The notes below the pieces were generated by a model. The model did not search any database. It saw nothing but the letters and a program-made list of their open reading frames with translations, and was not told where the DNA came from. Position numbers and translations under genes: made by a program. Shown here piece by piece: positions 2,825 to 30,042 of a stretch of 36,513 nucleotides of DNA. How positions within the stretch are numbered: position 1 is the first letter of the stretch; every line of letters starts with the position of its first letter. The stretch covers positions 1 to 36,513 of the forward strand of contig DWZA01000033.1 of the NCBI GenBank assembly GCA_019118365.1, written 5' to 3'. The DNA is from Candidatus Lachnoclostridium stercoravium. Its GTDB lineage: Bacteria; Bacillota; Clostridia; Lachnospirales; Lachnospiraceae.

Positions 2825-2848
2825 TAACAGTTCAGTCCTGAGCTGTTA
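2825..2848. repeat. Short palindromic GTTCAG element (site 1)
   Basis: TAACAGTTCAG at 2825-2835 faces CTGAGCTGTTA at 2838-2848, an 11-base inverted repeat with one G-T wobble and almost no loop. It lies in the convergent spacer after the lipoprotein gene. No T-tract follows on the plus strand, so it is not an obvious terminator. It shares its arm motif with the other dispersed elements of the window. Confidence 0.65.
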
Positions 2849-2885
2849 CAAAACAAAGCCTGGCCGACAAGTACGGCTCCTGATA

Positions 2886-2932
2886 CAAAAACTCTTCTTC
2901 CGGCGGTAAGATATCATTTCTTACCGCCGGAA
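2886..2932 (-). terminator. Intrinsic terminator of thrH-like gene
   Basis: TTCCGGCGGTAAGA (2898-2911) and TCTTACCGCCGGAA (2919-2932) form a perfect 14-bp stem with a 7-base loop. Read on the minus strand, the stem is followed after a few bases by a run of five T, as expected for the 3' end of the minus-strand gene. The plus-strand side is A-rich, not T-rich. Confidence 0.75.
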
Positions 2933-2982
2933 ATCTAAAAATAAAAATCCCGTCCGTACCGATGCCTGTTTCTGAGATCGGA

Positions 2983-3591
2983 TCAGTCCGCGACAGCCTG
3001 TTTGAAAGCAGCCAGCAGCTCCTCATATGTTTCATATGCGGGGATCTGGGGGAAATCCGCTTTGATCTGATCCGTGGTGCGGAAGAGGAAACCAGCCTTT
3101 CCAGCCTGGATCATATCCAGATCATTGTAGCTGTCTCCGGCGGCCACAGTTTCAAAGCCAATGGACTGGAGCGCTCTTACAGTAGAAAGCTTGGACTGTT
3201 GGATGCGCATGCGAAAGCCTGTGATCTCGCCATCTGGAGCCACTTCCAGCGAATTGCAGAACAAAGTGGGCCATCCCAGCTTCTTCATAAGAGGGGAAGC
3301 AAACTGAGTAAAGGTATCGCTGATGATGATCACCTGGCAGATGGAGCGCAGCTCGTCTAAAAATTCTTTTGCACCCGGCAGGGGATCGATCCCGGCGATC
3401 GTCTCCTGGATCTCTTTTAATCCAAGTCCGTGCTCCTTAAGGATGCCCAGACGCCACTTCATCAGCTTATCATAATCCGGTTCGTCCCTGGTAGTGCGTT
3501 TCAGTTCCGGGATACCGCTTGCCTGGGAAAACGCGATCCAGATCTCAGGGACAAGAACGCCTTCCAGGTCTAAACATACGATCTTCTGCAT
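2983..3591 (-). CDS. thrH: HAD-family phosphoserine phosphatase / homoserine phosphotransferase, ThrH-like
   Basis: The 202-aa product begins MQKIVCLDLEGVLVPEIW, the characteristic ThrH start: nucleophile Asp8 and Glu10 in HAD motif I. Motif II is IIISDTF and motif IV is GDSYNDLDM. ThrH of Pseudomonas is about the same length; it dephosphorylates phosphoserine and can transfer the phosphate to homoserine. I chose ATG 3591, which has a GGAG box just upstream. The longer frame to 3639 would add 16 non-conserved residues. The gene stands alone on the minus strand, with its own promoter and terminator. Phosphoserine phosphatase is the safer activity; the homoserine transfer is inferred from the family. 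Confidence 0.85.
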   Translation of the reverse strand: MQKIVCLDLEGVLVPEIWIAFSQASGIPELKRTTRDEPDYDKLMKWRLGILKEHGLGLKEIQETIAGIDPLPGAKEFLDELRSICQVIIISDTFTQFASPLMKKLGWPTLFCNSLEVAPDGEITGFRMRIQQSKLSTVRALQSIGFETVAAGDSYNDLDMIQAGKAGFLFRTTDQIKADFPQIPAYETYEELLAAFKQAVAD

Positions 3592-3652
3592 AATAATCTC
3601 CTTTGTCTTTGGCAATGCCGCGCCTGCGGCGTGAGCCATTAGTCTTATCTCT

Positions 3653-3680
3653 ATTTTATATGGGATTTTTCACTTGTCAA
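3653..3680 (-). promoter_or_regulatory. Promoter of thrH-like gene
   Basis: On the minus strand TTGACA (3675-3680) is followed after 16 bases by TAAAAT (3653-3658). The start codon lies about 60 bases downstream. A small GCCGC/GCGGC hairpin sits in the leader near 3615-3630. Confidence 0.65.
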
Positions 3681-3765
3681 TCTATTTAAAAAAGAGCTTT
3701 TAAACTGCCTGTAAAACGGCTGTTCTGATCTGCCTTTCTTTATGGAAAATCCGCCGGATTTCCTA

Positions 3766-3794
3766 TTGCCTGTTTTGGGAAAAATCGCTATAAT
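3766..3794 (+). promoter_or_regulatory. Promoter of tetR-family gene
   Basis: TTGCCT (3766-3771) and TATAAT (3789-3794) are separated by 17 bases. It diverges from the thrH promoter. The leader to the regulator start is about 125 bases. No clear operator palindrome was recognised. Confidence 0.65.
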
Positions 3795-3925
3795 AGAACG
3801 TGTCTGCGAATGCAGGCACATTCGTTTTTATAGGAAATGCGTTCCCATGAAAGGAAACGCTCCGCCAGGACCGCATTGCAGCGGATAAGAAGATGCCGCA
3901 GAGGTCCGCCGCAGCAGGAGAAAGG

Positions 3926-4567
3926 ATGGAATTTATTATGCCGAAAGCATCTCTGGAGCTGACCGCAAGAAGAGAGAAGGAGATCGTCGATGCTTGCGAG
4001 AAGATCTACCGGGCAAAGGGATTTTACGGCGTTACGATCAAAGAGATCAGTACAGAAACCAGCTTTACAAGGCCGGCGATCTATAATTATTTTGAAACAA
4101 AAGACGAGATCCTTCTGGCGCTTCTCATTCGGGAATATGAAAAGATGTGCGAGGGACTGAAAGAGGTAAAAGAAAGAGCGGCTCTTTTTGAAAAGAAAGA
4201 GCTGGCGGAGGCTCTCGCCCAGGTGCTGGAAGAGAGGGAACTTCTTCTTCGGATTCAGAGCATGGATCTGTTTCAGATCGAGATAAACAGCAGGATCGAA
4301 CGGCTGGCGGATTTTAAAAAGCGATACCGCTGCGCCTCGGATGCGCTGGAGGAGATCCTGTGCCTTTACAGCAGCTCTGCTTCCGCACAGGAGCGCAGGG
4401 ATTGCTGCATGACATTTTTTGCTTTTATGTTTGGAATCTATCCATTCGCATTCCATACAGAGAAGCAGCGGAAAGCCATGGAGATGGCGGGAATGCCAAA
4501 CAGGGAGACTTCCATTTACAGGATGGTTTATAACTGCCTTATGAAACTGCTCCCGGAGAAGACATAA
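3926..4567 (+). CDS. TetR/AcrR-family transcriptional regulator
   Basis: The N-terminal half is a TetR helix-turn-helix: IVDACEKIYRAKGFYGVTIK, then EISTETSFTRPAIYNYFETK, then the DEILLALL helix. The C-terminal half is a divergent ligand and dimer domain of the type often seen next to lipoprotein or transporter genes in Lachnospiraceae. Two starts are plausible: ATG 3926 (AGGAG at 3916-3920) and ATG 3938 (AAAGGA at 3921-3926). The second begins MPKASLEL, the more usual family start. The gene has its own promoter at 3766 and is followed after 58 bases by a DUF3298-type lipoprotein, which may be its target or co-transcribed. The ligand is unknown. Confidence 0.85.
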   Translation: MEFIMPKASLELTARREKEIVDACEKIYRAKGFYGVTIKEISTETSFTRPAIYNYFETKDEILLALLIREYEKMCEGLKEVKERAALFEKKELAEALAQVLEERELLLRIQSMDLFQIEINSRIERLADFKKRYRCASDALEEILCLYSSSASAQERRDCCMTFFAFMFGIYPFAFHTEKQRKAMEMAGMPNRETSIYRMVYNCLMKLLPEKT

Positions 4568-4625
4568 AAACACTTCAGAATGCCGTTATTAAAGAGAAAA
4601 ATCACACAAAACAAAGAGGTGGATC

Positions 4626-6299
4626 ATGGATAAAAGACAGATGGGAAAATGGAGAAAAATGCCTGCAGCATGGCTGATGATCCTGCTTCTTATGGGCTGC
4701 TCTTCTTCACCAGAGGATAGCGAGGCTTTCGAAGCCGACGGATCAGTGTCAGAGGCAGAGACGGAAAGCAGTATAGAAGAGGAAGAGACAGAAGAAGAGA
4801 ACGCAGAAGAAATGCAGGAAGAGGAAACGGAGAAAGAAGACCGGGAGGAAGAGACGCAGGAAACGGACCTGGAGGAGGCGCAGGAGGCTGGCAATGCTGT
4901 GCTTCATCCGGTATTGGAAAAGGAATGGTCATCGGTATACGCGGAAGGCTCTTCTAACCTTCTCTGCGAAGGAGGATTTTCCCGGATCGGCCTTCGGGAT
5001 CCTGGATATGAAGAGCTGAAGGCTTCTCTGACTTCCTATAACGAAGAGAAAAACAGAATAGTGGAGGACGAGATGGCCAGGATGGAACAGGAGGCCAGAG
5101 CGCTGATGGCGGGTTCGCCGTATCCGCCGGCCGGCTTCAGCGTGGGATATACGGCGCAGATCGAGCGGGCGGACGACAGGATCTTTTCTTTTATGGAACA
5201 ATCCTCCATCTATACGGGAGGAGCTCACGGAAGCGAGACGATTACCGGATATGCATTTGACAGCCAGACGGGAGAAAGGCTGGAGCTTTCCGATGTGGTT
5301 TCAGATATGGACGGTCTTTACGAGTATTTGATCCGATTTCTCAGGGCAGATCCTTTTTACAGGGAAAATCTTTATGAAGAGTGGGAAGATACTGTAGGAA
5401 AGAAAGTGTACCAGGAGACGGAGGACGGATATACCTATTCGCTTCAATGGGCCCTTGCGGAGGATGGGATAAAGATATATTTCAGTCCCGATGAGATCGG
5501 ACCGTCGGTCATGGGGCCTGTGACGGTCAGGATCCATTATGATGAGGAGCTTCTGGGGGTTGCGCCGCAGTATTTCCCGGTAAAGGAAAAGAGCGTATGG
5601 AAACTTGGAGCCTATGAGGAGCTGGCGATGGACGTGGATCAGGATGGAATGATCGAGAGTGTCAGCTACAGAAACACTTCCGGGCAGAATGGAATAGATC
5701 AGATCTATACGGTCAATGTGGACGGCCAGGCCGTGGAGATCAACTGTACCTATGGGATCACAAACGCATATGTCATGAAGAACGGGCAGGGAAAGGCTTA
5801 TTTTTACGCAGACTGCCAGAGTGATAATGACTACCATTACCTGAACATCATCGACCTGACGGAGCTTAAGGAAAGTGGAGAAAATACAAATGCTCCCACC
5901 TTTTCCCATGCTTTTTACGATGACGTGCCTGTAGATGCCTCTTCATTTGCACTTTCCTCCAGAGGAGATCTCTTTTCCACCGTTCCTGTCAGCAGGCAGT
6001 ATTACGTGGGAGAAGACGGAAAGCCTCAGACGGATGAGAGCGAATATACGGTCGACCGCCTGGAGGTGACCGCTCTTCAGGATGTTCCCGCGTTGACAGG
6101 AAGCAGCTTTGAAAAAGAGGCGGTGGTTCCCGCCGGGACAAAACTTTATGTGATATCCACAGATGAAACGTCCTGCGTAACAGCGGAAACAGAAGAAGGA
6201 GTGAAATACCGTTTTGAAGTAAACGGGGAGCAGTGGCCTCACACTATTGATGGAACCGATATTACGGAGCTGTTTGACGGCCTGATCTTCGCCGGCTGA
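4626..6299 (+). CDS. Acidic lipoprotein with DUF3298 (RsiV/PdaC-like) domain
   Basis: The 557-aa product has a lipobox (LLLMGC, Cys25) and a Glu/Ser-rich linker to about residue 85. The next part matches the DUF4163/DUF3298 fold of RsiV and PdaC: a helical stretch with Glu and Arg, then SSIYTGGAHGSETITGYAFD and TGERLELSDVVSD. The remaining ~240 residues contain a DVDQDGMIESV segment, like a calcium-binding or VCBS loop, with no family I can name. RsiV-type domains bind lysozyme in anti-sigma factors and PdaC deacetylates peptidoglycan; neither activity is shown here. GAGGTGG before ATG 4626 supports the start. It probably shares transcription with the TetR gene. Confidence 0.75.
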   Translation: MDKRQMGKWRKMPAAWLMILLLMGCSSSPEDSEAFEADGSVSEAETESSIEEEETEEENAEEMQEEETEKEDREEETQETDLEEAQEAGNAVLHPVLEKEWSSVYAEGSSNLLCEGGFSRIGLRDPGYEELKASLTSYNEEKNRIVEDEMARMEQEARALMAGSPYPPAGFSVGYTAQIERADDRIFSFMEQSSIYTGGAHGSETITGYAFDSQTGERLELSDVVSDMDGLYEYLIRFLRADPFYRENLYEEWEDTVGKKVYQETEDGYTYSLQWALAEDGIKIYFSPDEIGPSVMGPVTVRIHYDEELLGVAPQYFPVKEKSVWKLGAYEELAMDVDQDGMIESVSYRNTSGQNGIDQIYTVNVDGQAVEINCTYGITNAYVMKNGQGKAYFYADCQSDNDYHYLNIIDLTELKESGENTNAPTFSHAFYDDVPVDASSFALSSRGDLFSTVPVSRQYYVGEDGKPQTDESEYTVDRLEVTALQDVPALTGSSFEKEAVVPAGTKLYVISTDETSCVTAETEEGVKYRFEVNGEQWPHTIDGTDITELFDGLIFAG

Positions 6300-6459
6300 C
6301 GCGCAGATGGATCATGCAGAAATAACTGGAATAATCGCTTTGTCTGTGATATGATGAGACTGAGGCTGAAGGAGCGAGAAGACCAGGAAAAAGGTCTGGA
6401 GCCGCTTTTTTGGCCGGAGCATGACGAGGTATCGGAATGTAAGAAAGAAGGTGGACGAT

Positions 6460-6901: not shown

Positions 6902-6960
6902 GTATCAGTTCAGCCGTGTATCTTCCCTCCAGCACAGAATGTGCCGTCCGGAACTGTTAC
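6902..6960. repeat. Palindromic GTTCAG element, type A (site 2)
   Basis: The ends GTATCAGTTC (6902-6911) and GAACTGTTAC (6951-6960) are inverted copies with one mismatch. The interior, read on the minus strand (GCACATTCTGTGCTGGAGGG onward, then AAGATACACGGCTGAACTG), is nearly identical to plus-strand sequence at 30000-30037. The two copies lie 23 kb apart in spacers and in opposite orientation. Confidence 0.75.
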
Positions 6961-6994
6961 TATCATATATCTTGGCGCACGGCTGAACCGTTAC
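6951..6994. repeat. Palindromic GTTCAG element, type B (site 3), overlapping a gene end
   Basis: It shares its left end GAACTGTTAC with the type A element and ends GGCTGAACCGTTAC (6981-6994). About 35 bases from 6962 match 20230-20264 with only two differences. The stop codon and the last nine or ten codons of the minus-strand flavodoxin/ferredoxin gene lie inside it. Confidence 0.75.
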
Positions 6995-7778: not shown

Positions 7779-7829
7779 TTTCCTGATATTTTGTAACTGT
7801 TCAGGACGGAACAGTCTGATATCAGGAAA
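7779..7829 (-). promoter_or_regulatory. Nested palindrome in the EFR1 gene leader (contains GTTCAG element, site 4)
   Basis: TTTCCTGATAT (7779-7789) and ATATCAGGAAA (7819-7829) form an 11-bp outer stem. Inside it ACTGTTC (7796-7802) and GAACAGT (7809-7815) form a second stem with the loop AGGACG. It lies 37 bases upstream of the TTG start, so on RNA it could fold just before the ribosome site. No T-tract follows. Confidence 0.6.
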
Positions 7830-9734: not shown

Positions 9735-9742
9735 GCAGGGAA

Positions 9743-9893
9743 AACCGTTCAGACGTGGTCTTCTTGCCAGCGCAGGGCGCTGGCAAGAAGCCGGGAAAGT
9801 TATCCCTATGCAGAAAAATAAGGGAGAAGTCGCAAAGGAAAGCCAGCTTTCCCTGCTCCTTTCCCCTATTTTTCTGCGCACGTCTGAACGGTT
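9743..9893. repeat. Large nested palindromic element with GTTCAG ends (site 5)
   Basis: AACCGTTCAGACGTG (9743-9757) and its exact inverse (9879-9893) make 15-bp terminal inverted repeats. Inside are a perfect 14-bp hairpin (9760-9773 with 9777-9790, loop AGG) and a 15-bp stem with one mismatch (9810-9824 with 9863-9877). The latter encloses GGAAAGC/GCTTTCC (9837-9843, 9846-9852). The folded RNA would be a closed multibranch structure of 151 nt. No ORF is inside. It sits after the GGDEF gene. Confidence 0.7.
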
Positions 9894-9934
9894 GGGCGTA
9901 ATAAAAGTTTTAGGGAATTGTCAGGATTTCTGTA

Positions 9935-10043: not shown

Positions 10044-11849
10044 ATGAAATACAGAAAACGGATAATGGCGGCAGCTGCGGCGGGATTTATGGGGCTTTCT
10101 ATTATGTACGCTCCTGGGATCTCCTATGCGGCGGAAGTGTGGGAGATGGAAGACGGAGCATACCGGATGGCGGACGGGACGGCGATCACAGGAGCCATCG
10201 CCAGAGGGATCGACGTATCCCACTGGCAGCAGACGATCGACTGGGATCAGGTGGCGGCGGACGACGTGTCTTTCGTTATGCTGGGAACGAGATATCAGGG
10301 GAAGGAGGATCCCCGGTTTGATTATAATGCTACAGAGGCCCATAAGAGAGGGATCAAGCTGGGAGCCTATATCTATTCGTATGCGACTTCTGTAGAAGAG
10401 GCGGAAGCAGAGGCGGATTTTATCCTGGATCTGGTGAAGGATTACCCTATTTCATTCCCTATCGCTTTTGATGCGGAGGATGCCGGGACGTTGGGCACCC
10501 TTTCTCCGTCCCAGGTCAGCGATGTGATCAATGCGTTCTGCAAAAAGATCGAAGATGCGGGATATCACCCGATGGTATATTCCAATGAATACTGGATGAA
10601 CAATAAGATCGACCAGTCGAAGCTTGACTACGACGTATGGATCGCCCGTTACAACGTCATGCATACATATCGGGATCCGGCCATGTGGCAGGCTACCAGC
10701 ACAGGCTCTGTCAACGGGATCTCTGGCAACGTGGATATTGACTTTTTGTATAAGGACTTTTCCCAGGTGATCCCTGCCGATACATGGAGGACCATAGGAG
10801 AAAAGACTTACTATTATAAAGATTATACCATGCAGAAGTCTACGTGGATCGACGACGGGGACGGCTGGTATTACATGGACAGCGAAGGAAGCCCGTCAAA
10901 AGGCTGGCTGGCTATTTCCGGGGAAGATTACTATCTGGATGACGAGACAGGAAAGATGGTGACCGGCTGGAAAGAGCTGAACGGAGATCATTACTATTTT
11001 AAGGATTCCGGAGCAATGGCTACGGGCTGGCGAGATATTGACGGAGCCTGGTATTATATGGACGATGAAGGAAAGAGACAGACTGGCTGGCAGGAGATCG
11101 GCGGAGAAGATTACTATCTGGAGCATGACGGAAAGATGGTAACTGGCTGGGAGCTGCTGGACGGGGACTACTACTACTTTGATCCGTCCGGAGCCATGGC
11201 TGCAGGCTGGCAGAAGATCAGCGACGTCTGGTATTATCTGGGCAGCGATGGAAAGATGGACACCGGCTGGCAGGAGATCGAGGGAGAGCGCTATTATCTG
11301 GAAGGCTCCGGAGCTATGGTGACCGGCTGGCAGACCATCGACGGCAACCGGTATTTCTTCAACCAGTCCGGCGAGATGAAGACTGGCTGGCAGAATATTG
11401 ACGGAGCCTGGTATTACATGAACCAGAACGGCCATATGCAGACCGGCTGGGAAGAGATCGGCGGAACCTGGTATTATATGGATGAAAATGGCCGAATGAT
11501 GACCGGCTGGCAGGAGATCGGCGGAGTCTGGTACTATCTGGATGGAAGCGGAGCTATGGCGACCGGCTGGCAGGAGATCGGCGGCGCGCTGTATTATCTG
11601 GACGAGAGCGGAGCTATGGCTGCGGACCGTGAGCTTGAATATAATGGCGAGCGGTATTATGCCGGAGCGAACGGAGCCTGCACGAAGGTTATGGAAGAAG
11701 GACAGGAAGGCCAGCAGGGTATGGAAGGACAGGGCCAGGAAAGCCTGGAAGCAGCAGACAATACAGAGACAGTTCCGCCAGCAGGCCAGACCGGGGAACA
11801 GGATCCCTCCCAGTCCGGCCAGGCTGCAGGACCTGGAGCAGGATTATAA
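10044..11849 (+). CDS. Secreted GH25 lysozyme with C-terminal cell-wall-binding repeats
   Basis: The 601-aa protein has a signal peptide (cleavage near SYA/AEV, residue 29). Its GH25 muramidase domain (about 53-245) carries the motifs GIDVSHWQ (Asp57) and FDAEDAG (Asp143, Glu145), the acidic residues used to cleave the MurNAc-GlcNAc bond. It is followed by about 14 choline-binding-type repeats of 20 residues, most of the form GWQEIGGxWYYLDxSGxMxT. The last unit (DRELEYNGERYYAGANGACT) is degenerate. A Gln/Gly/Glu-rich tail ends the protein. Whether the repeats bind choline or another wall glycan is unknown. It is likely a cell-wall remodelling or lytic enzyme at the cell surface. Confidence 0.92.
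   Translation: MKYRKRIMAAAAAGFMGLSIMYAPGISYAAEVWEMEDGAYRMADGTAITGAIARGIDVSHWQQTIDWDQVAADDVSFVMLGTRYQGKEDPRFDYNATEAHKRGIKLGAYIYSYATSVEEAEAEADFILDLVKDYPISFPIAFDAEDAGTLGTLSPSQVSDVINAFCKKIEDAGYHPMVYSNEYWMNNKIDQSKLDYDVWIARYNVMHTYRDPAMWQATSTGSVNGISGNVDIDFLYKDFSQVIPADTWRTIGEKTYYYKDYTMQKSTWIDDGDGWYYMDSEGSPSKGWLAISGEDYYLDDETGKMVTGWKELNGDHYYFKDSGAMATGWRDIDGAWYYMDDEGKRQTGWQEIGGEDYYLEHDGKMVTGWELLDGDYYYFDPSGAMAAGWQKISDVWYYLGSDGKMDTGWQEIEGERYYLEGSGAMVTGWQTIDGNRYFFNQSGEMKTGWQNIDGAWYYMNQNGHMQTGWEEIGGTWYYMDENGRMMTGWQEIGGVWYYLDGSGAMATGWQEIGGALYYLDESGAMAADRELEYNGERYYAGANGACTKVMEEGQEGQQGMEGQGQESLEAADNTETVPPAGQTGEQDPSQSGQAAGPGAGL
10860..11635 (+). repeat. 60-bp tandem repeat coding for the lysozyme wall-binding units
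   Basis: The sequence has a clear 60-base period, with GGCTGG near the same phase of nearly every unit. Each unit encodes one 20-residue repeat; one unit is 63 bases. Adjacent units such as those around 11260, 11500 and 11560 are very similar, so copy number could change by recombination. Confidence 0.85.
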
Positions 11850-14522: not shown

Positions 14523-14535
14523 TAATAGATAATAA

Positions 14536-14627
14536 CCGTTCAGAACGGCGGGAAAGCAGGGACAAAACCAGGCGTTAAGCTTGCTTATAAGCATGGGTTT
14601 GTCCCTGCTTTCACATCGGATGAACGG
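14536..14627. repeat. Palindromic GTTCAG element with long stem after xfp (site 6)
   Basis: CCGTTCA (14536-14542) and TGAACGG (14621-14627) form the outer arms. Inside, GAAAGCAGGGACAAA (14552-14566) pairs perfectly with TTTGTCCCTGCTTTC (14598-14612). It begins 13 bases after the xfp stop. The architecture, outer GTTCA arms around a strong hairpin, matches the element at 9743. Confidence 0.7.
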
Positions 14628-14750: not shown

Positions 14751-14920
14751 GTTTTCAGCAGAAGCTGAAGAAAGGTTCAGAAGAACCTGGGCTAGGAGCT
14801 ACAGAGACTTATTTAAATCGTTCAGGACGGCATACCTTCTTGAACGGTTATAAATTATAAGGGAACGCCAGAAGGCGGCAGGCAGTCCAGCAGGACAGCC
14901 GCCATTGGCGTTCCTTTTTT
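14751..14920 (+). ncRNA. Structured leader or small RNA ending in an intrinsic terminator, before the nik-lar operon
   Basis: From the predicted start the RNA can form TTCAGC-AGAA-GCTGAA (14753-14768) and AGGTTC-AGAA-GAACCT (about 14774-14789). A GTTCAG-element hairpin follows with CGTTCA (14819-14824) and TGAACG (14841-14846). Then comes a compound stem: GGAACGCCA (14862-14870) with TGGCGTTCC (14906-14914), enclosing GGCGGC/GCCGCC and GTCC/GGAC, ending in TTTTTT (14915-14920). The terminator lies about 100 bases before the nikA-like start, so it must be read through for operon expression. It does not match any riboswitch consensus I can recall, including NiCo. Confidence 0.55.
14819..14846. 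repeat. Palindromic GTTCAG element inside the nik-lar leader (site 7)
   Basis: CGTTCA (14819-14824) and TGAACG (14841-14846) are inverted arms around a 16-base core (GGACGGCATACCTTCT). Wider flanks (AAATCGTTCAGGACGG and TTGAACGGTTATAA) match the arm motifs of the dispersed family. Confidence 0.6.
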
Positions 14921-20150: not shown

Positions 20151-20213
20151 GATACGGCGCAGGCTTCGAGCGCAGCCGTCTGGGACGGTTTATGAAAATC
20201 ATGGAAAGGGAAA

Positions 20214-20262
20214 GTGACAGTTCAACTGTATCATATATCCTGGCGCACGGCTGAACTGTTAC
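20214..20262. repeat. Palindromic GTTCAG element, type B, inside the nik-lar operon (site 8)
   Basis: GTGACAGTTCA (20214-20224) and TGAACTGTTAC (20252-20262) are inverted ends with one mismatch. The interior ATCATATATCCTGGCGCACG matches site 3 near 6962 with one difference. It fills the 122-base gap between the NikE-type gene and larB and supplies sequence right up to the larB ribosome site (AAGGG). No T-tract follows, so read-through is expected. Confidence 0.75.
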
Positions 20263-20272
20263 AAGGGAAAAA

Positions 20273-21025
20273 ATGGACACACGGGAATTGTTGAAAATGG
20301 TATCGGAAGGGCGGATGTCTGTGGACGACGCGGAGAAAGAACTGAAAGATCTTCCCTATAAGGATTTGGGATACGCCAAGCTGGATCTGCACAGGAAGCT
20401 GCGCTCCGGTTTTCCGGAAACCGTCTTCTGCCAGGGAAAGCCGGATGAATTTCTGGCAAAGATCTTTCAGACCTTATATGAGAAAAATGGAGAAGTCCTG
20501 GGAACGAGAGCTTCCAAAGAGCAGTATGAGCTGGTGAAAAGCATCCTGCCTCAGGCAGTCTACGATCCGGTTTCCAGGATCGTTAAAATAGAAGAAAAAA
20601 ATAAAGAAAGGCAGGGCTGCATCGCGGTCTGCACTGGAGGAACGGCGGATATCCCTGTGGCGGAAGAAGCCGCTCAGACGGCAGAATTTTTCGGAACCTA
20701 TGCAGAACGGATCTACGACGTAGGCGTGGCGGGGATCCACCGGCTTTTAAGCCAGAGAGAGCGGATCCAGAAGGCGAACTGCGTAATAGCTGTAGCCGGT
20801 ATGGAAGGAGCTCTTGGCACGGTGATCGCTGGCCTGGTGGAAAATCCGGTGATCGCAGTTCCTACGTCCGTCGGCTATGGGGCGAATTTCGGCGGGTTAT
20901 CCGCGCTGCTGACCATGATCAACTCCTGCGCCAACGGCATATCAGTGGTAAATATTGACAACGGCTACGGAGCCGGCTATCTGGCGACCCAGATCAACCG
21001 CCTGGCCGCGTCTGAAACAAAATAA
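20273..21025 (+). CDS. larB: LarB, pyridinium-3,5-biscarboxylic acid mononucleotide synthase
   Basis: The 250-aa protein carries the PurE-like carboxylase domain of LarB in its C-terminal two thirds: VCTGGTADIPVAEEAAQTAEFFG, YDVGVAGIHRLLS, GMEGALGTVIAGLVENPVIAVPTSVGYG. The N-terminal ~80 residues are the usual LarB helical part. LarB carboxylates and hydrolyses nicotinic acid adenine dinucleotide, the first step of nickel-pincer nucleotide synthesis. ATG 20273 follows AAGGG. It opens the lar part of the operon; larC starts 21 bases after it. Confidence 0.95.
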   Translation: MDTRELLKMVSEGRMSVDDAEKELKDLPYKDLGYAKLDLHRKLRSGFPETVFCQGKPDEFLAKIFQTLYEKNGEVLGTRASKEQYELVKSILPQAVYDPVSRIVKIEEKNKERQGCIAVCTGGTADIPVAEEAAQTAEFFGTYAERIYDVGVAGIHRLLSQRERIQKANCVIAVAGMEGALGTVIAGLVENPVIAVPTSVGYGANFGGLSALLTMINSCANGISVVNIDNGYGAGYLATQINRLAASETK

Positions 21026-21046: not shown

Positions 21047-22465
21047 ATGAACGGAACAAAGGAGAGAATCTTATATCTGGAGTGTAATTCCGGGATCAGC
21101 GGAGACATGACCGTAGGAGCGCTGCTGGATCTGGGAGCAGATAAAGACAGGCTGGTACAGGCTTTGGACAGCATGAAGGTGGACGGCTACCATCTCCATT
21201 TCGGACGTAAGGCAAAATGTGGGATCGACGCATTTGATTTTGACGTCCATCTGGAGGAAGAAGATCATGATCACCACCATCACGGCCATGAGGAAGGCCA
21301 TGATCATCATCACCACGACCATGAGGAAGGCCGTGATCATCATCACCACGGCCACGAAGAGGGACATGACCACGATCACCACGGCCACGAAGAGGATCAT
21401 GATCATGACCATCACCACGGCCATGAGGAAGACCATGATCACCACCACAGCCACGAAGACGGCCATCACCATCATCATGCCCACAGGGGACTTAGAGAGG
21501 TCACAGAGATCATTGACCGGATGGAAGAAAAAGATTCCGTAAAAGCAATGGCGAAAAAAATGTTTGACATTGTCGCAGAGGCTGAGTCAAAGGCCCACGG
21601 CATTCCGGCAGAAGAGGTCCATTTCCATGAAGTAGGAGCTGTCGATTCCATCATAGATATCGTCAGCACAGCGGTGCTGATGGACGACCTTCAGGTGGAT
21701 AAGGTGATCGTTTCCCCCCTTGCGGAAGGCCACGGCTATGTCCGCTGCCAGCATGGGGTGATGCCGGTTCCGGTGCCGGCTACCGCGAATATCGCCCAGT
21801 CCTGCGGCCTGATCTTAAAGGCCACAGACAATGAGGGAGAAATGGTGACTCCTACGGGAGCGGCTATCGCGGCGGCTTATCACTGCGGGGAGAAGCTTCC
21901 GGCACAGTACCGCATAATAAAAACAGGGCTGGGAGCGGGAAACAAAGATTTCAAACAGGCCAACGTCTTAAGAGCCATGATCCTGGAACCAGTCCGGGAA
22001 GAGGAGAAGAAAGACGCCGGATGGGGCGGACAGGAAACCCTTTGGGTCATGGAGACAAATGTGGACGACTGCTCCGGAGAAGCTCTGGGATATACCATGG
22101 AACGGCTGTTTAAGCTGGGAGCGGCGGACGCCTGGTTTGTTCCGGCGTTTATGAAAAAGAACCGTCCGGCCTATGTGCTCCGCGTACTCTGCACTGCGGA
22201 TAAGATCGAGGCAATGGAAGACGAGATCTTCGCTTCTACCACAACCATCGGGATCCGCCGTTATCCGGTGGAACGCACGGTCCTGACAAGGAGAAAAGAG
22301 CGGATCGCCACAGAGTATGGCGAAATAGACGTAAAAGTCTGCAGCCGGGGAGATAAGACCTACTGCTATCCGGAATATGAAAGTGTAAAAAAGATCTGTG
22401 AAGAACAGGGGATCGGCTATGAGGAAGCTTACCACCTGGCAAGAAAAGCGGCAGAGGAAAAATAG
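21047..22465 (+). CDS. larC: LarC, nickel insertion protein of NPN cofactor synthesis, with His-rich insert
   Basis: The 472-aa protein is LarC in a single uninterrupted frame. In Lactobacillus plantarum larC is read by a programmed frameshift as LarC1 and LarC2; here no shift is needed. Motifs include LYLECNSGISGDMTVGALLD at the start, HEVGAVDSIIDIVSTAVLMD, VPATANI, VTPTGAAIAAAYHC and METNVDDCSGEALGYTME. Residues 74-146 are a His/Asp/Glu/Gly insert with 39 His, built from an 11-residue repeat. LarC inserts nickel into the pincer ligand using CTP. The insert probably stores or channels nickel. AGGAGAGAGG before ATG 21047 supports the start. Confidence 0.95.
   Translation: MNGTKERILYLECNSGISGDMTVGALLDLGADKDRLVQALDSMKVDGYHLHFGRKAKCGIDAFDFDVHLEEEDHDHHHHGHEEGHDHHHHDHEEGRDHHHHGHEEGHDHDHHGHEEDHDHDHHHGHEEDHDHHHSHEDGHHHHHAHRGLREVTEIIDRMEEKDSVKAMAKKMFDIVAEAESKAHGIPAEEVHFHEVGAVDSIIDIVSTAVLMDDLQVDKVIVSPLAEGHGYVRCQHGVMPVPVPATANIAQSCGLILKATDNEGEMVTPTGAAIAAAYHCGEKLPAQYRIIKTGLGAGNKDFKQANVLRAMILEPVREEEKKDAGWGGQETLWVMETNVDDCSGEALGYTMERLFKLGAADAWFVPAFMKKNRPAYVLRVLCTADKIEAMEDEIFASTTTIGIRRYPVERTVLTRRKERIATEYGEIDVKVCSRGDKTYCYPEYESVKKICEEQGIGYEEAYHLARKAAEEK
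21266..21482 (+). repeat. Degenerate ~33-bp tandem repeat coding for the LarC His-rich segment
   Basis: Units centred on CATGATCATCATCACCACG and CATGAGGAAGGC recur about six times, encoding HDHHHHGHEEG-like 11-mers. Third-position changes separate the units, so they are not freshly duplicated. Confidence 0.8.
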
Positions 22466-23986: not shown

Positions 23987-26098
23987 ATGTATAAGAGTTT
24001 TTCAATGGAACTGGCCGGCCGGACTCTGACCGTAGATGTTGGAAGAGTAGCGGCACAGGCAAACGGAGCTGCATTTATGCACTATGGCGATACCGTTATT
24101 TTATCTACCGCGACAGCATCCGATAAGCCAAGGGAAGGGATCGATTTCTTCCCGCTGAGCGTAGAATACGAGGAGAAGATGTACGCAGTAGGAAAGATCC
24201 CAGGAGGGTTCAATAAGAGAGAAGGAAAGGCTTCTGAGAACGCCATCCTTACCTCACGCGTGATCGACCGTCCGATGCGTCCTCTGTTCCCGAAGGACTA
24301 CAGAAACGACGTTACCCTGGACAATCTGGTCATGAGCGTGGATCCGGATTGCAGCCCGGAACTTACAGCTATGCTTGGCTCTTCCATCGCTACCTGCATT
24401 TCCGATATCCCATTTGACGGCCCCTGCGCGGCTACTCAGGTAGGTATGATCGACGGAGAATTTATCATCAACCCGACAAGCGCTCAGAAAAAGGTTTCTG
24501 ATATGGCCCTGACCGTAGCTTCCACCAGGGAAAAGGTCATCATGATCGAGGCTGGCGCCAATGAAGTGCCGGAGCAGGTGATGATCGATGCGATCTTTAA
24601 AGCGCACGAAGTGAACCAGGAGATCATCCGCTTTATCGACGGTATCGTAGCAGAATGCGGCAAGGAAAAGCATTCTTACGAGAGCTTTGCAGTGCCGGAA
24701 GAGCTGTTTGCAGCTATTAAGGAGATCGTTACTCCAGAAGAGATGGAGGAAGCGGTATTTACAGATGATAAGCAGACAAGAGAAGCCAACATCGCCGCGA
24801 TCACAGAAAAGCTGGAAGAGGCTTTTGCTGAAAACGAAGAATGGCTGCCTCTGTTAGGAGACGCTATTTACCAGTATGAGAAAAAGACCGTCCGCAAGAT
24901 GATCTTAAAAGACCACAAGCGTCCTGACGGCCGCCAGATCACAGAGATCCGTCCGCTGGCAGCAGAGATCGACATCCTTCCAAGAGTTCATGGATCCGGT
25001 ATGTTCACAAGAGGACAGACCCAGATCTTAAACGCATGTACCCTGGCTCCGCTGTCTGAGGCTCAGAAGCTGGACGGACTGGATGAAAACGAGACTTCCA
25101 AGAGATATATGCATCATTATAACTTCCCGTCCTACTCTGTAGGCGAGACAAAACCGTCCAGAGGTCCGGGACGCCGCGAGATCGGCCATGGCGCTCTGGC
25201 AGAGAGGGCGCTGATCCCGGTACTTCCAAGCGAAGAGGAGTTCCCGTATGCGATCCGTACCGTATCTGAGACAATGGAATCCAACGGTTCCACATCCCAG
25301 GCCAGCATCTGCGCATCCACGCTTTCCCTTATGGCGGCAGGCGTTCCGATCAAGGCTCCGGTAGCAGGTATTTCCTGCGGACTTGTAACCGGCGATACAG
25401 ACGATGATTATATCGTTCTTACGGACATTCAGGGCCTGGAAGATTTCTTCGGAGATATGGACTTTAAGGTAGGCGGAACCCATAAGGGCATTACCTCCAT
25501 CCAGATGGATATCAAGATCCACGGCCTGACAAGACCGATCATCGAAGAGGCTATCGCAAGGACAAGGGAAGCAAGGATCTACATCCTTGACGAGATCATG
25601 AAGCCAGTGATCGCAGAGCCCAGAAAAGAACTGAGCAAGTACGCTCCGAAGATCCGCCAGATCATGATCGATCCGGCTAAGATCGGCGACGTAGTTGGAA
25701 AACAGGGCAAGGTGATCAACAAGATCATCGAGGAGACAGGCGTTAAGATCGATATCACAGACGACGGAGCAGTAAACGTATGCGGCACCGACGCAGCGAT
25801 GATCGACAAAGCTCTGGAGATCATCCACAATATCGTTACAGACGTAGAACCAGGTATGGTCATGAGCGGAAAAGTAGTGCGCATCATGAACTTCGGCGCA
25901 TTTGTAGAACTGGCTCCGAACAAAGACGGTATGGTTCACATTTCCAAGCTGTCTGAAAAGAGAGTTGGAAAGGTAGAAGACGTAGTCAATATCGGCGACG
26001 AAGTAACCGTAAAGGTCATCGAAGTGGACCGCATGGGCAGGATCAACCTGAGCATGAAGCCATCCGACCTGAATCCGGAAGCAAATAAGAAAAACTGA
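23987..26098 (+). CDS. pnp: Polynucleotide phosphorylase
   Basis: The 703-aa full-length PNPase has two RNase PH domains (about 10-145 and 315-460; FFPLSVEYEEKMYAVGKIPGGF and THKGITSIQMDIKI are typical). A KH domain (MIDPAKIGDVVGKQGKVINK) and a C-terminal S1 domain (SGKVVRIMNFGAFVELAPNK) follow. It degrades RNA 3' to 5' with phosphate as a trimeric ring. AAGGAG precedes ATG 23987. Its stop codon lies inside a CTGAACTGTTAC motif of the dispersed repeat family. The codon use is that of a well-expressed gene. Confidence 0.97.
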   Translation: MYKSFSMELAGRTLTVDVGRVAAQANGAAFMHYGDTVILSTATASDKPREGIDFFPLSVEYEEKMYAVGKIPGGFNKREGKASENAILTSRVIDRPMRPLFPKDYRNDVTLDNLVMSVDPDCSPELTAMLGSSIATCISDIPFDGPCAATQVGMIDGEFIINPTSAQKKVSDMALTVASTREKVIMIEAGANEVPEQVMIDAIFKAHEVNQEIIRFIDGIVAECGKEKHSYESFAVPEELFAAIKEIVTPEEMEEAVFTDDKQTREANIAAITEKLEEAFAENEEWLPLLGDAIYQYEKKTVRKMILKDHKRPDGRQITEIRPLAAEIDILPRVHGSGMFTRGQTQILNACTLAPLSEAQKLDGLDENETSKRYMHHYNFPSYSVGETKPSRGPGRREIGHGALAERALIPVLPSEEEFPYAIRTVSETMESNGSTSQASICASTLSLMAAGVPIKAPVAGISCGLVTGDTDDDYIVLTDIQGLEDFFGDMDFKVGGTHKGITSIQMDIKIHGLTRPIIEEAIARTREARIYILDEIMKPVIAEPRKELSKYAPKIRQIMIDPAKIGDVVGKQGKVINKIIEETGVKIDITDDGAVNVCGTDAAMIDKALEIIHNIVTDVEPGMVMSGKVVRIMNFGAFVELAPNKDGMVHISKLSEKRVGKVEDVVNIGDEVTVKVIEVDRMGRINLSMKPSDLNPEANKKN

Positions 26099-26106
26099 AC
26101 TGTTAC
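26095..26106. repeat. Single GTTCAG-family arm at the pnp stop codon (site 10)
   Basis: CTGAACTGTTAC covers the TGA of pnp. No opposite arm was found nearby, so this is a half-site that could be chance or a remnant. Confidence 0.4.
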
Positions 26107-26175: not shown

Positions 26176-26228
26176 ATTCCATAGGAAAGACTGTATTGAT
26201 TTTAAATGAAAAAGTATCGCCTTTCCTA

Positions 26229-26256
26229 TTGACGGATTTTGAGACAATTGTAATAA
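26229..26256 (+). promoter_or_regulatory. Possible promoter of the M14 peptidase operon
   Basis: TTGACG (26229-26234) and TAATAA (26251-26256) are spaced by 16 bases. The -10 box is only a partial match. The predicted leader is about 65 bases. Confidence 0.45.
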
Positions 26257-26325
26257 AAGCGTAATGGCATTTCTCTGTAAAATGTGGTAATGTATATACC
26301 ATAGACTACAAAGAGGAGACAATTT

Positions 26326-27447
26326 ATGAGATATGACCGATTGGCGCTGGCTCTCGCGGCAGCGATGAGCCTGACCTGTTTCGCCCCGGTATGCGCGCTG
26401 GCGCAGGGGCCCGGCGACGCCCTGATGCAGGCGGAAGAAGCGGCCTCTGAGGCGGCTGCCCAGGATCCGGATGATATTTCTTTAAAAGAATCTGCCAACC
26501 CGGCGGTGAAGCCGGTGATGCTCTATACGTACGATCAGATGGTTCATGATATCGGCATCCTGCAGGGAAGATACGGGAACCGGATGAGAGTGGGAAGCTT
26601 CGGCACGTCCTTAGACGGCCGGACGCTGTATGAGATCACTATCGGAAATCCGAATGCGGGAAAGCATGTGATGATCCAGGCAGGGATCCATGGAAGGGAA
26701 TATATGACGCCCCTTCTGGTGATGAAGCAGCTGGAGACGGCCCTGGAATTTGCCGATACGGCGAATTACAAGGGCGAGCCTTTAAAAGATATGCTGGAAG
26801 AAGTCCAGGTGCATTTCCTTCCCATGGTGAATCCGGACGGGGTATGCATAAGCCAGATGGGCTTTGAGGGACTGCGCTCCTATGATCTTCGTCAGATCAT
26901 GGAAGAAGGATACGAGAAAGACCTGGAGGAGGAGCGGACGGACACGACCCTTGATAAGTACGTCCTTTACTGTAAAGGGAATGGACGAGGCGTGGATTTA
27001 AATATCAATTTCCCGGCCGGCTGGGAGGATATCACCACATCCCCCGGCCATGCGTCTTATACCGGATATAAGGGGGAGCGTCCTGCTTCCGAGCCGGAGA
27101 CGAAAGGGCTGATGGCTCTGGCGAACAGGTATCACTGGGCGGCGACAGTCAGCTACCATTCTCAGGGAGAAGTGATCTACTGGGACTTCCCGGAGAATAA
27201 AGTAAGGGAAGCTTCAAAAGAACTGGCGGAAGAGCTGGCCAGTATAAGCGGATATACGCTTTTGGAATCCAACGGCAAAGGCGGCTTTAAGGATTGGATG
27301 CAGGTAAAGGACGACCCGGCTCCCAGCGTTACAGTAGAGACGGGAGCGGCGGAGTGCCCGATGCCATTTTCCCAGTGGGAAAATGTCTGGACAAAGAACA
27401 GGAGCGGCTGGGCGGCGGCCCTGTATTACGCCTTTCACAAAGGATAA
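26326..27447 (+). CDS. Secreted M14-family zinc carboxypeptidase-like protein
   Basis: The 373-aa protein has a signal peptide (LALALAAAMSLTCFAPVCALA). The M14 fold carries zinc ligands His122 and Glu125 (AGIHGREYMTP) and His278 (VSYHSQG), with catalytic Glu339 (SVTVETGA). The usual substrate-carboxylate motif DLNRNF reads DLNINFP (residues 224-230), so the Arg is Ile. Loss of that Arg is also seen in gamma-D-glutamyl-diamino-acid peptidases, which cut peptidoglycan stems, and this is the likelier activity. AGAGGAG precedes ATG 26326. The next gene, an ABC ATPase, starts 13 bases after the stop, so the peptidase leads an operon. Confidence 0.87.
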   Translation: MRYDRLALALAAAMSLTCFAPVCALAQGPGDALMQAEEAASEAAAQDPDDISLKESANPAVKPVMLYTYDQMVHDIGILQGRYGNRMRVGSFGTSLDGRTLYEITIGNPNAGKHVMIQAGIHGREYMTPLLVMKQLETALEFADTANYKGEPLKDMLEEVQVHFLPMVNPDGVCISQMGFEGLRSYDLRQIMEEGYEKDLEEERTDTTLDKYVLYCKGNGRGVDLNINFPAGWEDITTSPGHASYTGYKGERPASEPETKGLMALANRYHWAATVSYHSQGEVIYWDFPENKVREASKELAEELASISGYTLLESNGKGGFKDWMQVKDDPAPSVTVETGAAECPMPFSQWENVWTKNRSGWAAALYYAFHKG

Positions 27448-27460
27448 GGAGGCGAACAGT

Positions 27461-28135
27461 ATGGTAGAAGCAGCTGGGATCCGCAAAAGCTATTCCAGAG
27501 GGAAGAAAGTCCTGAAGGAGATCTCGTTTTATGCCAGGCCGGGAGAATGTGTCGGCATCGTAGGAGAGAACGGCTGCGGGAAGACCACGCTGTTATCCAT
27601 TCTTGCCGGGACATTGAAGGCAGACGGCGGAAGCCTGAAGTATTTTGGCGAAGAAGTCCTTGGAGACAGGAAAGCGATCCGCCGGCAGGTGGCGTATGTG
27701 CCTCAGGAAAATCCTCTGATGGAGGAGCTTTCTGTGAGGGATAACCTGCTTTTGTGGTATCAGGGAAGGCGGGCGGCTATGAAAAGAGATCTGCAGAACG
27801 GCCCGGCCTTTATGCTGGGGCTTTCCGGCCACGAAAGGGAGACCGCGGGAAAGCTTTCCGGCGGCATGAAAAAACGCCTTTCCATCGCCTGTTCCCTGGC
27901 AGGCCACGGCAGGATCCTGATCATGGATGAGCCAGGGGCGGCTCTGGATCTTTTGTGCAAAGAAGAGATACGGAGATATCTGGAAGCATACCGGAAGGGA
28001 GGAGGGATCGTGATCCTCACTTCCCACGACCTGATGGAGCTTCAGATGTGCTCCAGGATATACATTATGAAAGACGGAAGGCTTACTGAGCTGGAGAAAG
28101 ATTTTCCCCTGGAACAGTTAGCCGGACGATTATGA
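27461..28135 (+). CDS. ABC transporter ATPase
   Basis: The 224-aa ATPase has Walker A GENGCGKT (residues 35-42), Q-loop YVPQENPLMEELSVRDNL, signature LSGGMKKR (132-139), Walker B ILIMDEPG and the switch His in LTSHDL. Its type is that of CcmA/DrrA-like exporters working with ABC-2 permeases, and two such permease genes lie at 30067 and 31262. AAGGAGG at 27446-27452 fixes ATG 27461; the frame extends further upstream but overlaps the peptidase gene. The D-loop region reads DEPGAALD, a normal variant. The substrate is unknown. Confidence 0.88.
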   Translation: MVEAAGIRKSYSRGKKVLKEISFYARPGECVGIVGENGCGKTTLLSILAGTLKADGGSLKYFGEEVLGDRKAIRRQVAYVPQENPLMEELSVRDNLLLWYQGRRAAMKRDLQNGPAFMLGLSGHERETAGKLSGGMKKRLSIACSLAGHGRILIMDEPGAALDLLCKEEIRRYLEAYRKGGGIVILTSHDLMELQMCSRIYIMKDGRLTELEKDFPLEQLAGRL

Positions 28136-28154
28136 TAAAGGAGGAAAGTGTATT

Positions 28155-29981
28155 ATGAAAAGATGTCCATTTTGCAACGCAGAGATGAACGATGACGCGG
28201 TCTTCTGTCCAAACTGCGGGAATAGTGTGGAGCAGTATAGTTCTCAGGGGCAATACGATCCTCAGGGTCAGTACGGCTCTCAGGGCCAGTATGGTTCCCA
28301 GGGCCAGTACGGTTCCCAGGGCCAGTATGGTTCTCAGGCTCCTTATCCTTCCCAGGCGCCGCAGCCGAAAAGGGGAGTTGGAAAGCTGATCATCGGAGGC
28401 GTAGTGATCGCGGCTGTAGCGGCAGTGGGAATCTTTGCAGGAGTGAAGCTGCTGGGAAAGGATCCCAAGGACGTGGTGATCGATGCTTTTAAAGATGCAT
28501 TCGCCAGCGACGAGGCGACCCCGGCAGAAGAAGTCTTTGGCTGGAACGCGATCATGGAGAAATCCATGAAGGAAAATATGGAAGGCACATTCAGCCTGGC
28601 TCTGGACGAGTGCAGCGATTCTACGGTGAATATGTTCGCAGGCACGGAGATCGCTTCTTTCAGCCAGAGCGACGTGGCCAATAAAAAAGCATACGGGGAA
28701 TTCGGGCTTAAGCTGGCTGGTATGGATCTGATCAGCATGGAGGTCTACGCGGATCAGGAAAAGATCGCTGCGGCGATCCCGGAATTGAGCGAGAAGGTCT
28801 TTACTTTAGACTATGCCAACGACCTGGAAGGGCAGATCCAGTCTTCGCCGTTTGCGGGACCGGCGCTGGAAGAAGCGGGCATTGATGCGTCTTCTGCCGC
28901 AGTGCTGAAGGATTATATGGATTATATCTGGTCCTTCTACGATACAGAGGGAGAGAGGCCCTTTGATATTCAGGCGCTCTGGACCCGTTATAAAGAGGGA
29001 AGTCAGGCGATCGACAATTTCAAGGCAGCTATGACAGTAGAAAAGACCGACAGCCAGGAATTTACGGTAAATGGAGAGACAGCAAAGTGCAAAGGCTATG
29101 AAGTTGTCATCCCTCAGCAGGCGCTGATCGATTTTGTGGAAACGACGTCAGATTTCTTTATGAAAGACGAAAGCCTGAAAAACGACGTGCTGGAATATCT
29201 TTCCCAGATCGTAGCCATGAGCGGCGGCGTTAGCACCTACGGTATGAGCGCGGAGGAGATGCAGGAAGAGGCGTGGACCCAGATGGAAGAATGGACGGAC
29301 AGCCTGATCTCCGCTATGGAAGAGTCTATGGAGGATATCTCCATGACCGTTTATGTGGATAAGAAAGGCCAGCTGGCTGCCATCGAAGGCGAAACCACGC
29401 TTACCGTTAACGACGTGACCTGTGATATCACTCTGGATGCGAAGTTCCTTGGCGGAAGCTATCCGACCCAGAATGCTGAAGTACACATCGAGCTGGAAGC
29501 TGACGACACGGTAATAATAGATATCGTAAAAGAAGGCGAGTATACTGATGCGGTGCTTTCCAGCGCGGCAGACATGACGATGGAAGAAGGCGGAGAGACG
29601 CTTACAGTCTCCTATGAGGCGGAGTATGACAGACAGACTGGAGACTACACTCTGAGCCTGGCGGCAGGAGTCGGCGTAGACGAGGGACGCATTGACATTG
29701 AAGGCGCAGTATCAGATCTGGTTCCAGGAGAATCCTTTGACATTGCAATGGATCGGATCAGCGTGAAATGGGCAGGCGAAGAAGTGGCGGTCCTTTCTGG
29801 AAACTACTCCCTGCAGCCGATGGAAGGCGAAGTAACTATGCCGGAAGGCGAAGAGATGGACGTTCTGGCGGCTACGGAAGGAGACTGGAACGAGGTTGGC
29901 GTGGAGATGAACGCCAACGTCCAGCAGCTGCTCGAAACGTTCCGCGGGATCATCGTCCAAACGATACCTTATATGTATTAA
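28155..29981 (+). CDS. Zinc-ribbon membrane protein with large extracytoplasmic domain
   Basis: The 608-aa protein begins with a zinc ribbon (Cys4, Cys7, Cys18, Cys21: CPFCNAEM...FCPNCG). A QGQYGS repeat linker (residues 30-62, coded by near-identical 18-base units) and one transmembrane helix (about 77-101) follow. The remaining ~500 residues lie outside the cell. They contain helical and beta-like segments rich in Asp, Glu and Ser, with a DUF-like pattern I cannot name. The zinc ribbon would sit in the cytoplasm. AAAGGAGG lies before ATG 28155, 19 bases after the ATPase gene. Its place between the ATPase and permeases suggests a partner or sensor of the exporter; that is inference. Confidence 0.78.
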   Translation: MKRCPFCNAEMNDDAVFCPNCGNSVEQYSSQGQYDPQGQYGSQGQYGSQGQYGSQGQYGSQAPYPSQAPQPKRGVGKLIIGGVVIAAVAAVGIFAGVKLLGKDPKDVVIDAFKDAFASDEATPAEEVFGWNAIMEKSMKENMEGTFSLALDECSDSTVNMFAGTEIASFSQSDVANKKAYGEFGLKLAGMDLISMEVYADQEKIAAAIPELSEKVFTLDYANDLEGQIQSSPFAGPALEEAGIDASSAAVLKDYMDYIWSFYDTEGERPFDIQALWTRYKEGSQAIDNFKAAMTVEKTDSQEFTVNGETAKCKGYEVVIPQQALIDFVETTSDFFMKDESLKNDVLEYLSQIVAMSGGVSTYGMSAEEMQEEAWTQMEEWTDSLISAMEESMEDISMTVYVDKKGQLAAIEGETTLTVNDVTCDITLDAKFLGGSYPTQNAEVHIELEADDTVIIDIVKEGEYTDAVLSSAADMTMEEGGETLTVSYEAEYDRQTGDYTLSLAAGVGVDEGRIDIEGAVSDLVPGESFDIAMDRISVKWAGEEVAVLSGNYSLQPMEGEVTMPEGEEMDVLAATEGDWNEVGVEMNANVQQLLETFRGIIVQTIPYMY

Positions 29982-29989
29982 GGACAGGG

Positions 29990-30042
29990 CTTCCCTTCAG
30001 CACATTCTGTGCTGGAGGGAAGATACATGGCTGAACTGTTGC
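29990..30042. repeat. Palindromic GTTCAG element, type A, before the permease genes (site 11)
   Basis: CTTCCCTTCAGCAC (29990-30003) pairs with GTGCTGGAGGGAAG (30009-30022) around ATTCT, with one G-T. GGCTGAACTGTTGC follows (30029-30042). The right half matches the reverse of the element at 6902-6945. The left GTTCAG arm is missing here. No T-tract follows. Confidence 0.7.

Follow-up and report, generated by a model that had tools for sequence, protein, structure and literature searches.

The palindromes with GTTCAG arms that are scattered through contig DWZA01000033.1 of Candidatus Lachnoclostridium stercoravium (assembly GCA_019118365.1), which we analyzed over a stretch of 36,513 nucleotides referred to here as the window, are whole and shortened copies of a 155-bp mini-transposon without a gene of its own. 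They are very probably miniature inverted-repeat transposable elements (MITEs) whose ends and 8-bp target duplications match those of the ISBst12 group, a branch of the IS66 insertion sequences (IS), and which are likely moved in trans by a transposase of that group. Established directly from the sequence are the 12-bp ends, the AT-rich 8-bp duplications, the copy number, the nesting of one copy in another, the absence of an element at an orthologous position, and the presence of IS66-type genes at like ends in related genomes. The genome from which the window derives, hereafter the source genome, measures 3.0 Mb, is 94.5% complete and is assembled in 109 contigs.

All of the at least ten spacer sites with GTTCAG arms listed in an earlier note on this DNA are present. 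The motif AACNGTTCAG, allowing no more than one mismatch, occurs at 25 window sites (10 of them exact) compared with 5.66 expected, and none of 100 dinucleotide shuffles reached 25. Throughout the source genome, TAACNGTTCAG was counted 243 times and the reversed control pattern 0 times. In a 386,845-bp sample, composed of the window and 20 stretches of the source genome picked for many hits, so that its densities are not genome averages, 65 of 75 AACNGTTCAG sites fall outside called open reading frames (ORFs), although ORFs cover 87.9% of the bases, and six scrambled motifs gave 0–4 sites each. The earlier note had held that a motif no commoner than its composition predicts, or equally common within coding regions, would speak against a family of elements; the counts point the other way on both.

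Sites are frequently spaced by 142 bp, which corresponds to a 155-bp element, GTAACAGTTCAG…CTGAACTGTTAC, and the arms are the ends (GTAACNGTTCAG) of this element. Eleven full copies could be aligned, with a predicted outer stem of 16–20 bp, within which the 12 conserved end bases lie, and three arms. The genome search with a covariance model that the earlier note had proposed was carried out with a model built on these 11 copies and returned at least 149 matches, a lower bound in that 150 of 2,135 candidates were scored. The copies in the source genome fall into at least three body types. The elements resemble other MITEs in being short and bounded by terminal inverted repeats, in having a target duplication, and in occurring as many similar, mostly intergenic copies. 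They are too short for a gene, do not contain the single transposase ORF of an IS66 element, and are derivatives of the ISBst12 group rather than members of it.

The flanking sequences indicate transposition. Among 45 end-pairs of this sample (including one false pair at window position 26003 and two pairs longer than 200 bp), flank identity is maximal at exactly 8 bp, with a mean of 0.66 compared with 0.29–0.43 at lengths of 5–7 and 9–12 bp, and 26 of the 45 match at no fewer than 6 of 8 positions, where swapped flanks of different elements give an expectation of 0.87. Duplications agreeing at 7–8 of 8 positions were also found for 30 of 37 elements in the genomes of six relatives, of which two belong to the same genus and four to the same family. 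The duplications are AT-rich, with 23–26% GC versus 51% for the window, as calculated for the 18 elements of the source genome and 30 of the relatives that agree at 7–8 of 8. One type-2 copy is nested in a type-1 copy and flanked by ATATGATA / ATATGGTA (7 of 8 agreeing), and the uninterrupted type-1 copies therefore represent its paralogous empty site. At the spacer orthologous to the one that holds the window element at 20214, such a palindrome is missing in all six same-genus genomes examined, a comparison that G006 and G007 stand outside. The comparison of empty and filled sites suggested in the earlier note thus yielded the absence, while the spacer is too diverged in the relatives for the exact empty site to be visible.

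The genomic setting was counted for the 42 elements that remain after removal of the false pair and the two long pairs, and 41 of them do not lie within an ORF of 150 or more amino acids. Excluding the one within an ORF and two without classifiable neighbors, 39 elements could be classified: 30 have co-directional, 8 divergent and 1 convergent neighboring genes. The background gaps comprise 178 tandem, 28 divergent and 27 convergent ones, so the elements are distributed much like the background except for the few convergent cases.

GTAA ends combined with 8-bp duplications point to the IS66 family. Three IS66 loci in genomes of the same family have GTAA ends and perfect 8-bp duplications, but their end sequence is different. 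In genome G037, the left end of an IS, GTAACAGTTCAGCCTTGCGGC, is followed by an ORF with an IS66-type N-terminus, and the G037 MITEs have one end reading GTAACAGTTCAGCCATGCGGC, with 20 of 21 bases shared with the IS end. The first 73–76 bp of this IS recur at 6 further contig ends, as expected when a repeated IS breaks the assembly. Relatives of the G037 protein were found in 12 of 299 genomes, and the surrounding loci contain an end with no more than one mismatch to GTAACNGTTCAG in 9 of the 12, compared with about 0.05 chance ends calculated per locus. Genome G022 contains a 1,824-bp IS66 element with a 487-amino-acid transposase and the ends GTATCTGTTCAG / GTAACTGTTCAG. An element of 2,358 bp in G149 matches PF03050 (E 1.7e-25), has GTTACTGTTCA ends and is flanked by a perfect 8-bp duplication. 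Six annotated plasmid relatives of the G149 transposase, drawn from 95 records and sharing 27–30% identity with it, were searched around the gene for inverted ends of any sequence accompanied by an 8-bp duplication. Although the end sequence was not presupposed, five of the six gave ends of the form GTAACT…, each with an 8/8 duplication:

ISGst1: GTAACTATTCAG
Planococcus plasmid relative: GTAACTACTTAG
Deinococcus plasmid relative: GTAACTGCTCAG
Nostoc plasmid relative: GTAACTGCCCAG
Octadecabacter plasmid relative: GTAACTCCCAAG

For the sixth, from Pseudanabaena, this search gave none. Nine of the ten ends start with GTAAC and have AG at positions 11–12, a pattern to which GTAACNGTTCAG conforms. 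Judging from its single ORF and its ends, ISGst1 would belong to the ISBst12 group. ISDge4 is a described ISBst12-group element with the ends GTAACTGCTCAGCA / GTGACTACTCAGCA and an 8-bp repeat at a new laboratory insertion (PMC12898284), which that paper from 2026 presents as the first report of active transposition in the group. The ends and duplications of the plasmid relatives and of ISDge4 together indicate that the MITE ends are of the ISBst12-group type, as is the 8-bp duplication, which the MITEs have in common with that group. The link to REP or IS200-like transposases suggested in the earlier note was not borne out by these data, as the matching ends were found instead at IS66-type (DDE) transposase genes, although no profile search was aimed at RAYT genes; the transposase with matching ends that it had recommended looking for exists in related genomes, whereas none was found in the source genome.

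Several observations weigh against this assignment. Transposition was not observed. The flanks of 19 of the 45 pairs agree at 5 or fewer of 8 positions, including those of three 101-bp copies (2–3 of 8), and the flanks of the G022 element agree at just 2 of 8. Among the 12 genomes with relatives of the G037 protein, the loci of G119, G191 and G103 have no end at up to one mismatch, and the score of the G037 N-terminus itself for DUF6444 (21.1) falls short of the Pfam cut-off of 27. Searches with PF03050, the G037 N-terminus and PF20042 revealed no IS66/ISBst12-type gene in the source genome, and there was no PF03050 match in the MITE-rich genomes G001, G005, G033, G034, G010 and G037. In no MITE-rich genome was a complete element recovered that had its two ends together with a duplication, and from G037 only the left IS end was obtained. 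Among 37 PF03050 loci, which often had flanks that were too short, the G022 locus alone had paired GTAACNGTTCAG-like ends outside the gene, and the best-scoring IS66 loci were for that reason dropped as partner candidates. The absence of a gene is weak evidence, because contigs are broken at repeated IS in these fragmented assemblies; in G037, the IS66-type gene is interrupted by a contig end. It is possible that the IS resides in an unassembled part of the source genome, and possible also that it was lost.

Further candidates for the partner were rejected. The right end of a pair at locus L066 falls within the transposase gene; the left end from G059, with which a common IS sequence was sought, gave only short, weak matches beyond itself; and a repeat at contig ends of G034 has unrelated ends. 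The latter (L128–L133) is a separate repeat with ends TGTAAACGGCAAGTAC... at several of these contig ends, probably another IS. Three viral-contig matches to the 17-bp end correspond to one similar stretch with no second end, which looks like chance, and one further contig match is a lone end in a Lachnospiraceae metagenome-assembled genome. No copy of the type-1 element was detected in phages or plasmids at E 1e-5. Two observations concern ISBst12-type loci themselves. Left ends at L134:1955-2504, L071:3000-3193 and L145:3971-4094 contain TTATCCAC / GTGGATAA words next to a AAATTTTTTT run, and we take these words to resemble DnaA boxes. At L289:1223-2507 (genome G276), the N-terminal part of an ISBst12-type transposase gene extends over two frames and the gene is directly followed by an ORF that appears Cas2-like by eye.

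In the mechanism that we propose for the MITEs, an ISBst12-type transposase would recognize GTAACNGTTCAG and act in trans on the elements; it would formerly have been encoded in the source genome or would now lie in an unassembled stretch of it. The short forms of 26–101 bp may have arisen through deletions within the palindrome, and one of them, a 101-bp form reduced to the outer stem and the long arm, may subsequently have multiplied by itself. At least seven matches of 101–102 bp extend over the whole model. The 101-bp copies are a shortened subfamily within the source genome, and three of them, one-arm forms with a common body, are located at

L159:8953-9053
L164:3534-3634
L165:18718-18818

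As their flanks agree at only 2–3 of 8 positions, independent movement, if there was any, occurred long ago. The elements of the window are mostly shortened as well:

2824–2849, strand not assigned: arms-only element of 26 bp, flanks AAGACAGA / AAAACAAA, 6 of 8 equal
6902–6994, plus strand: shortened type-1 element of 93 bp, flanks GAAAATAC / AAAAATAC, 7 of 8 equal
7793–7816, plus strand: short remnant with the type-2 left end GTAACTGTTCAG, 21 bp at 90% to type 2, E 0.036
9741–9895, plus strand: full-length 155-bp element of a third, diverged body type, the only full copy in the window
14532–14625, minus strand: truncated type-2 element, 86% identity over 93 bp
14814–14851, plus strand: short type-2 remnant with both arms
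20214–20262, plus strand: internally shortened type-1 element of 49 bp with the perfect 8-bp duplication AAGGGAAA
23807–23839, plus strand: arms-only remnant with a degenerate right arm
26095–26106, minus strand: single end (CTGAACTGTTAC) overlapping the stop codon of ORF 23987–26098
29988–30042, minus strand: truncated type-1 element with the medium arm and one end, 96% over 53 bp

This inventory revises several bodies as the earlier note had drawn them. The arms it placed at 6902 and 6951 are real but belong to one element, composed of the left end and medium arm, an internal type-2-like end and the type-1 right end. Its type A and type B bodies do recur; they are parts of the same 155-bp element rather than separate bodies: type A corresponds to the medium arm, and type B combines the right end with the 3′ half of the long arm. 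The sites at 14536 and 14819 are pieces of the second body type, and dispersed copies of the stretch matching 14532–14625 occur in the same-genus genome G001. The site at 9743 belongs to the full-length third-type copy, whose predicted fold is a stem with three arms of 36, 14 and 68 nt and whose flanks show no clear target duplication. The arms are degenerate on the right at 7793 and 23807 and on the left at 14814. The half-site noted at 26095 is present and lies across the stop codon. The 20214 element ends 10 bp upstream of the ATG at 20273 (ORF 20273–21025), with the copies of its duplication at 20206–20213 and 20263–20270. The duplicated AAGGGAAA is a purine-rich, ribosome-site-like stretch, and because it flanks the element on both sides (20206–20270), the downstream gene may have retained its ribosome site.

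Related genomes contain private MITEs with the same ends, measuring 153 bp in G001, 186–187 bp in G005, 141–142 bp in G033, 173–174 bp in G037, 202 bp in G046 and 174 bp in G059. The bodies of the source-genome types and of G001 are related, while those of the other five match neither these nor one another at a cut-off of E 0.01, although short motifs common to G037 and G046 can be recognized by eye. One outer stem with exactly three arms is predicted for 9 of 10 representatives, compared with 8–21 of 100 end-keeping shuffles, and five of the six related MITE-bearing genomes examined have their own version of this cloverleaf. The exception, G046, has four arms, and a 173-bp variant in the source genome has three arms with an enlarged middle one (39 nt). 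The relatives' elements were counted as full-size if 120–240 bp long, with two end mismatches at most and a duplication agreeing at 5 of 8 bases or better. A stem with three arms is predicted for 29 of these 31, and the shortest arm (12–20 nt) is central in all 29; the two others are both from G046. The predicted folds are more stable than those of shuffled sequences (z −5.7 to −11.4). In the source-genome family together with G001, changes on both sides were found in 41 of 56 pairs versus 22.3 in shuffled and 10–22 in slid controls, in an alignment that is fitted to the model and hence biased towards it and that contains two 101-bp palindromes in both orientations. Each host lineage would seem to breed its own MITE body while retaining the ends, the size range and the cloverleaf layout. 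The recurring fold, which the earlier note had considered as an RNA structure, is thus confirmed as an observation through covariation and the folds of relatives; it belongs to the mobile element as such and does not prove an RNA function.

How the fold is maintained can be viewed in different ways. Complementarity may be unselected and arise by template switching during replication, which copies one arm onto another and imitates compensatory evolution; such switching between arms can restore complementarity (PMC8794818). The mark expected of arm-to-arm copying is loop inversion, and the medium arm has two arm sequences, with 25 GAA loops and 8 of the reverse complement TTC among 42 readable loops, while the tip of the long arm is inverted in 2 of 71 copies. 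This process accounts for complementarity within an arm, but not for three arms with the shortest one central in 29 of 31 relatives' elements, and it leaves the constant size of 141–202 bp unexplained; we regard it as quite plausible, while leaning somewhat against it as the whole explanation. More tentatively, and with considerable doubt, the cloverleaf itself could be inherited and selected, making the elements an IS66-borne MITE superfamily whose body changes freely in sequence but retains the stem, the short central arm and the two longer ones. Selection for shape would then explain the constant layout, and the same tentative proposal includes that a folded single strand, formed in replication or as a transcript, is needed for the element to move or to be tolerated.

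A more distant alternative is that the elements now serve chiefly as host RNA parts, in mRNA processing, stability or attenuation, and that their mobile origin is mere history. The stable predicted fold, the covariation and the positions beside starts and stops, with 30 of 39 elements between co-directional genes, would fit such a role, and transcription as part of untranslated regions is common for the bcr-type repeats of Bacillus cereus (PMC3446304). However, the neighbor classes resemble those of the background gaps, the single position compared is not shared by six relatives, the bodies are dissimilar in most relatives, and the many copies with near-perfect duplications are likely young. 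Nor did any element match Rfam: release 15 gave no match in the window at gathering scores, and its hits for seven element loci of seven genomes at E up to 0.1, a tRNA and a sub-threshold hit overlapping it, fall outside the elements. Taken together, we consider a predominantly host-directed role unlikely.

The earlier note had proposed a non-autonomous palindrome of the REP or MITE kind. The MITE part is upheld by the inverted repeats, duplications, nesting and the six relatives without the 20214 element; the REP part is not. Repetitive extragenic palindromes (REPs) are 20–40 bp stem-loops tagged with GTAG or CGTC at one end, the GTAG ones being tied to RAYT (PMC3733652). The elements described here share with them the dispersed intergenic palindromes, but not the tagged 20–40 bp form, since the unit is 155 bp long, has 8-bp duplications and IS66-type ends, and has GTAAC inside the stem and no GTAG tag outside it. 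Movement of REP/REPIN-like elements by a TnpA-REP (RAYT) tyrosine transposase is therefore highly improbable, a judgment that draws on the ends and duplications, no profile search having been aimed at RAYT/IS200-type genes. Intrinsic terminators or chance palindromes can be practically dismissed, as the earlier note had argued for terminators: although hairpins adjoin stop codons, the single element between convergent genes among 39 speaks against a terminator role, and the long conserved ends and the 243 occurrences against 0 in the control speak against both, a judgment made with no scan for T-tracts.

The nearest described relatives of the MITEs are the bcr1-type MITEs and the elements ISDge4 and ISGst1. 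The bcr1 repeats are about 155 bp in size, like the MITEs, but their ends and host group differ, and we know of no IS66 link for them. In the Bacillus cereus group they are high-copy, intergenic and described as 'structurally and functionally similar to' MITEs (PMC3446304). The likeness to ISDge4 (GTAACTGCTCAG, PMC12898284) and ISGst1 (GTAACTATTCAG) lies in the ends, compared with GTAACNGTTCAG, and in the 8-bp duplication; the ISBst12-group elements we measured span approximately 1.45–2.4 kb and have one transposase ORF, whereas the MITEs span 26–202 bp and have no gene. MITEPsy1 and MITEPsy2 of Pseudomonas syringae and MITECca01 of Cardinium are likewise bacterial MITEs that have been compared with named IS (PMC3189936, PMC9769881). 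Transposition of MITEPsy1 was observed (PMC3189936); it differs in its 4-nt duplication and ISPsy2-like ends, and we saw no mention of a cloverleaf. The earlier note could name no described family. The ends now place the palindromes with the ISBst12 group of IS66, while we found no description of the MITEs themselves in the open-access literature searched on IS66, ISBst12, MITEs, Lachnospiraceae/Clostridia and cloverleaf structures.

With these assignments, a palindrome family of high copy number (at least 149 matches in 3 Mb) can be attributed to a named transposon group, and MITEs are connected with the ISBst12 group. The private MITEs, with equal ends and layout and different bodies, provide a natural test of selection for shape versus template switching alone. 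Elements of this kind merit annotation, since they can fragment an assembly, create a target duplication immediately ahead of a start codon, as at 20214, or provide a stop codon, as at 26095.

Three ORFs of the window contain internal repeats of another kind. Tandem 60-bp repeats at 10860–11609 (ORF 10044–11849) encode GW..YYL-type motifs, which presumably resemble cell-wall-binding repeats. At 21254–21489 (ORF 21047–22465), 33-bp repeats encode a histidine-rich stretch that we assume to resemble those of metal-binding proteins, and 18-bp repeats at 28233–28358 (ORF 28155–29981) encode QYGSQG-like units.

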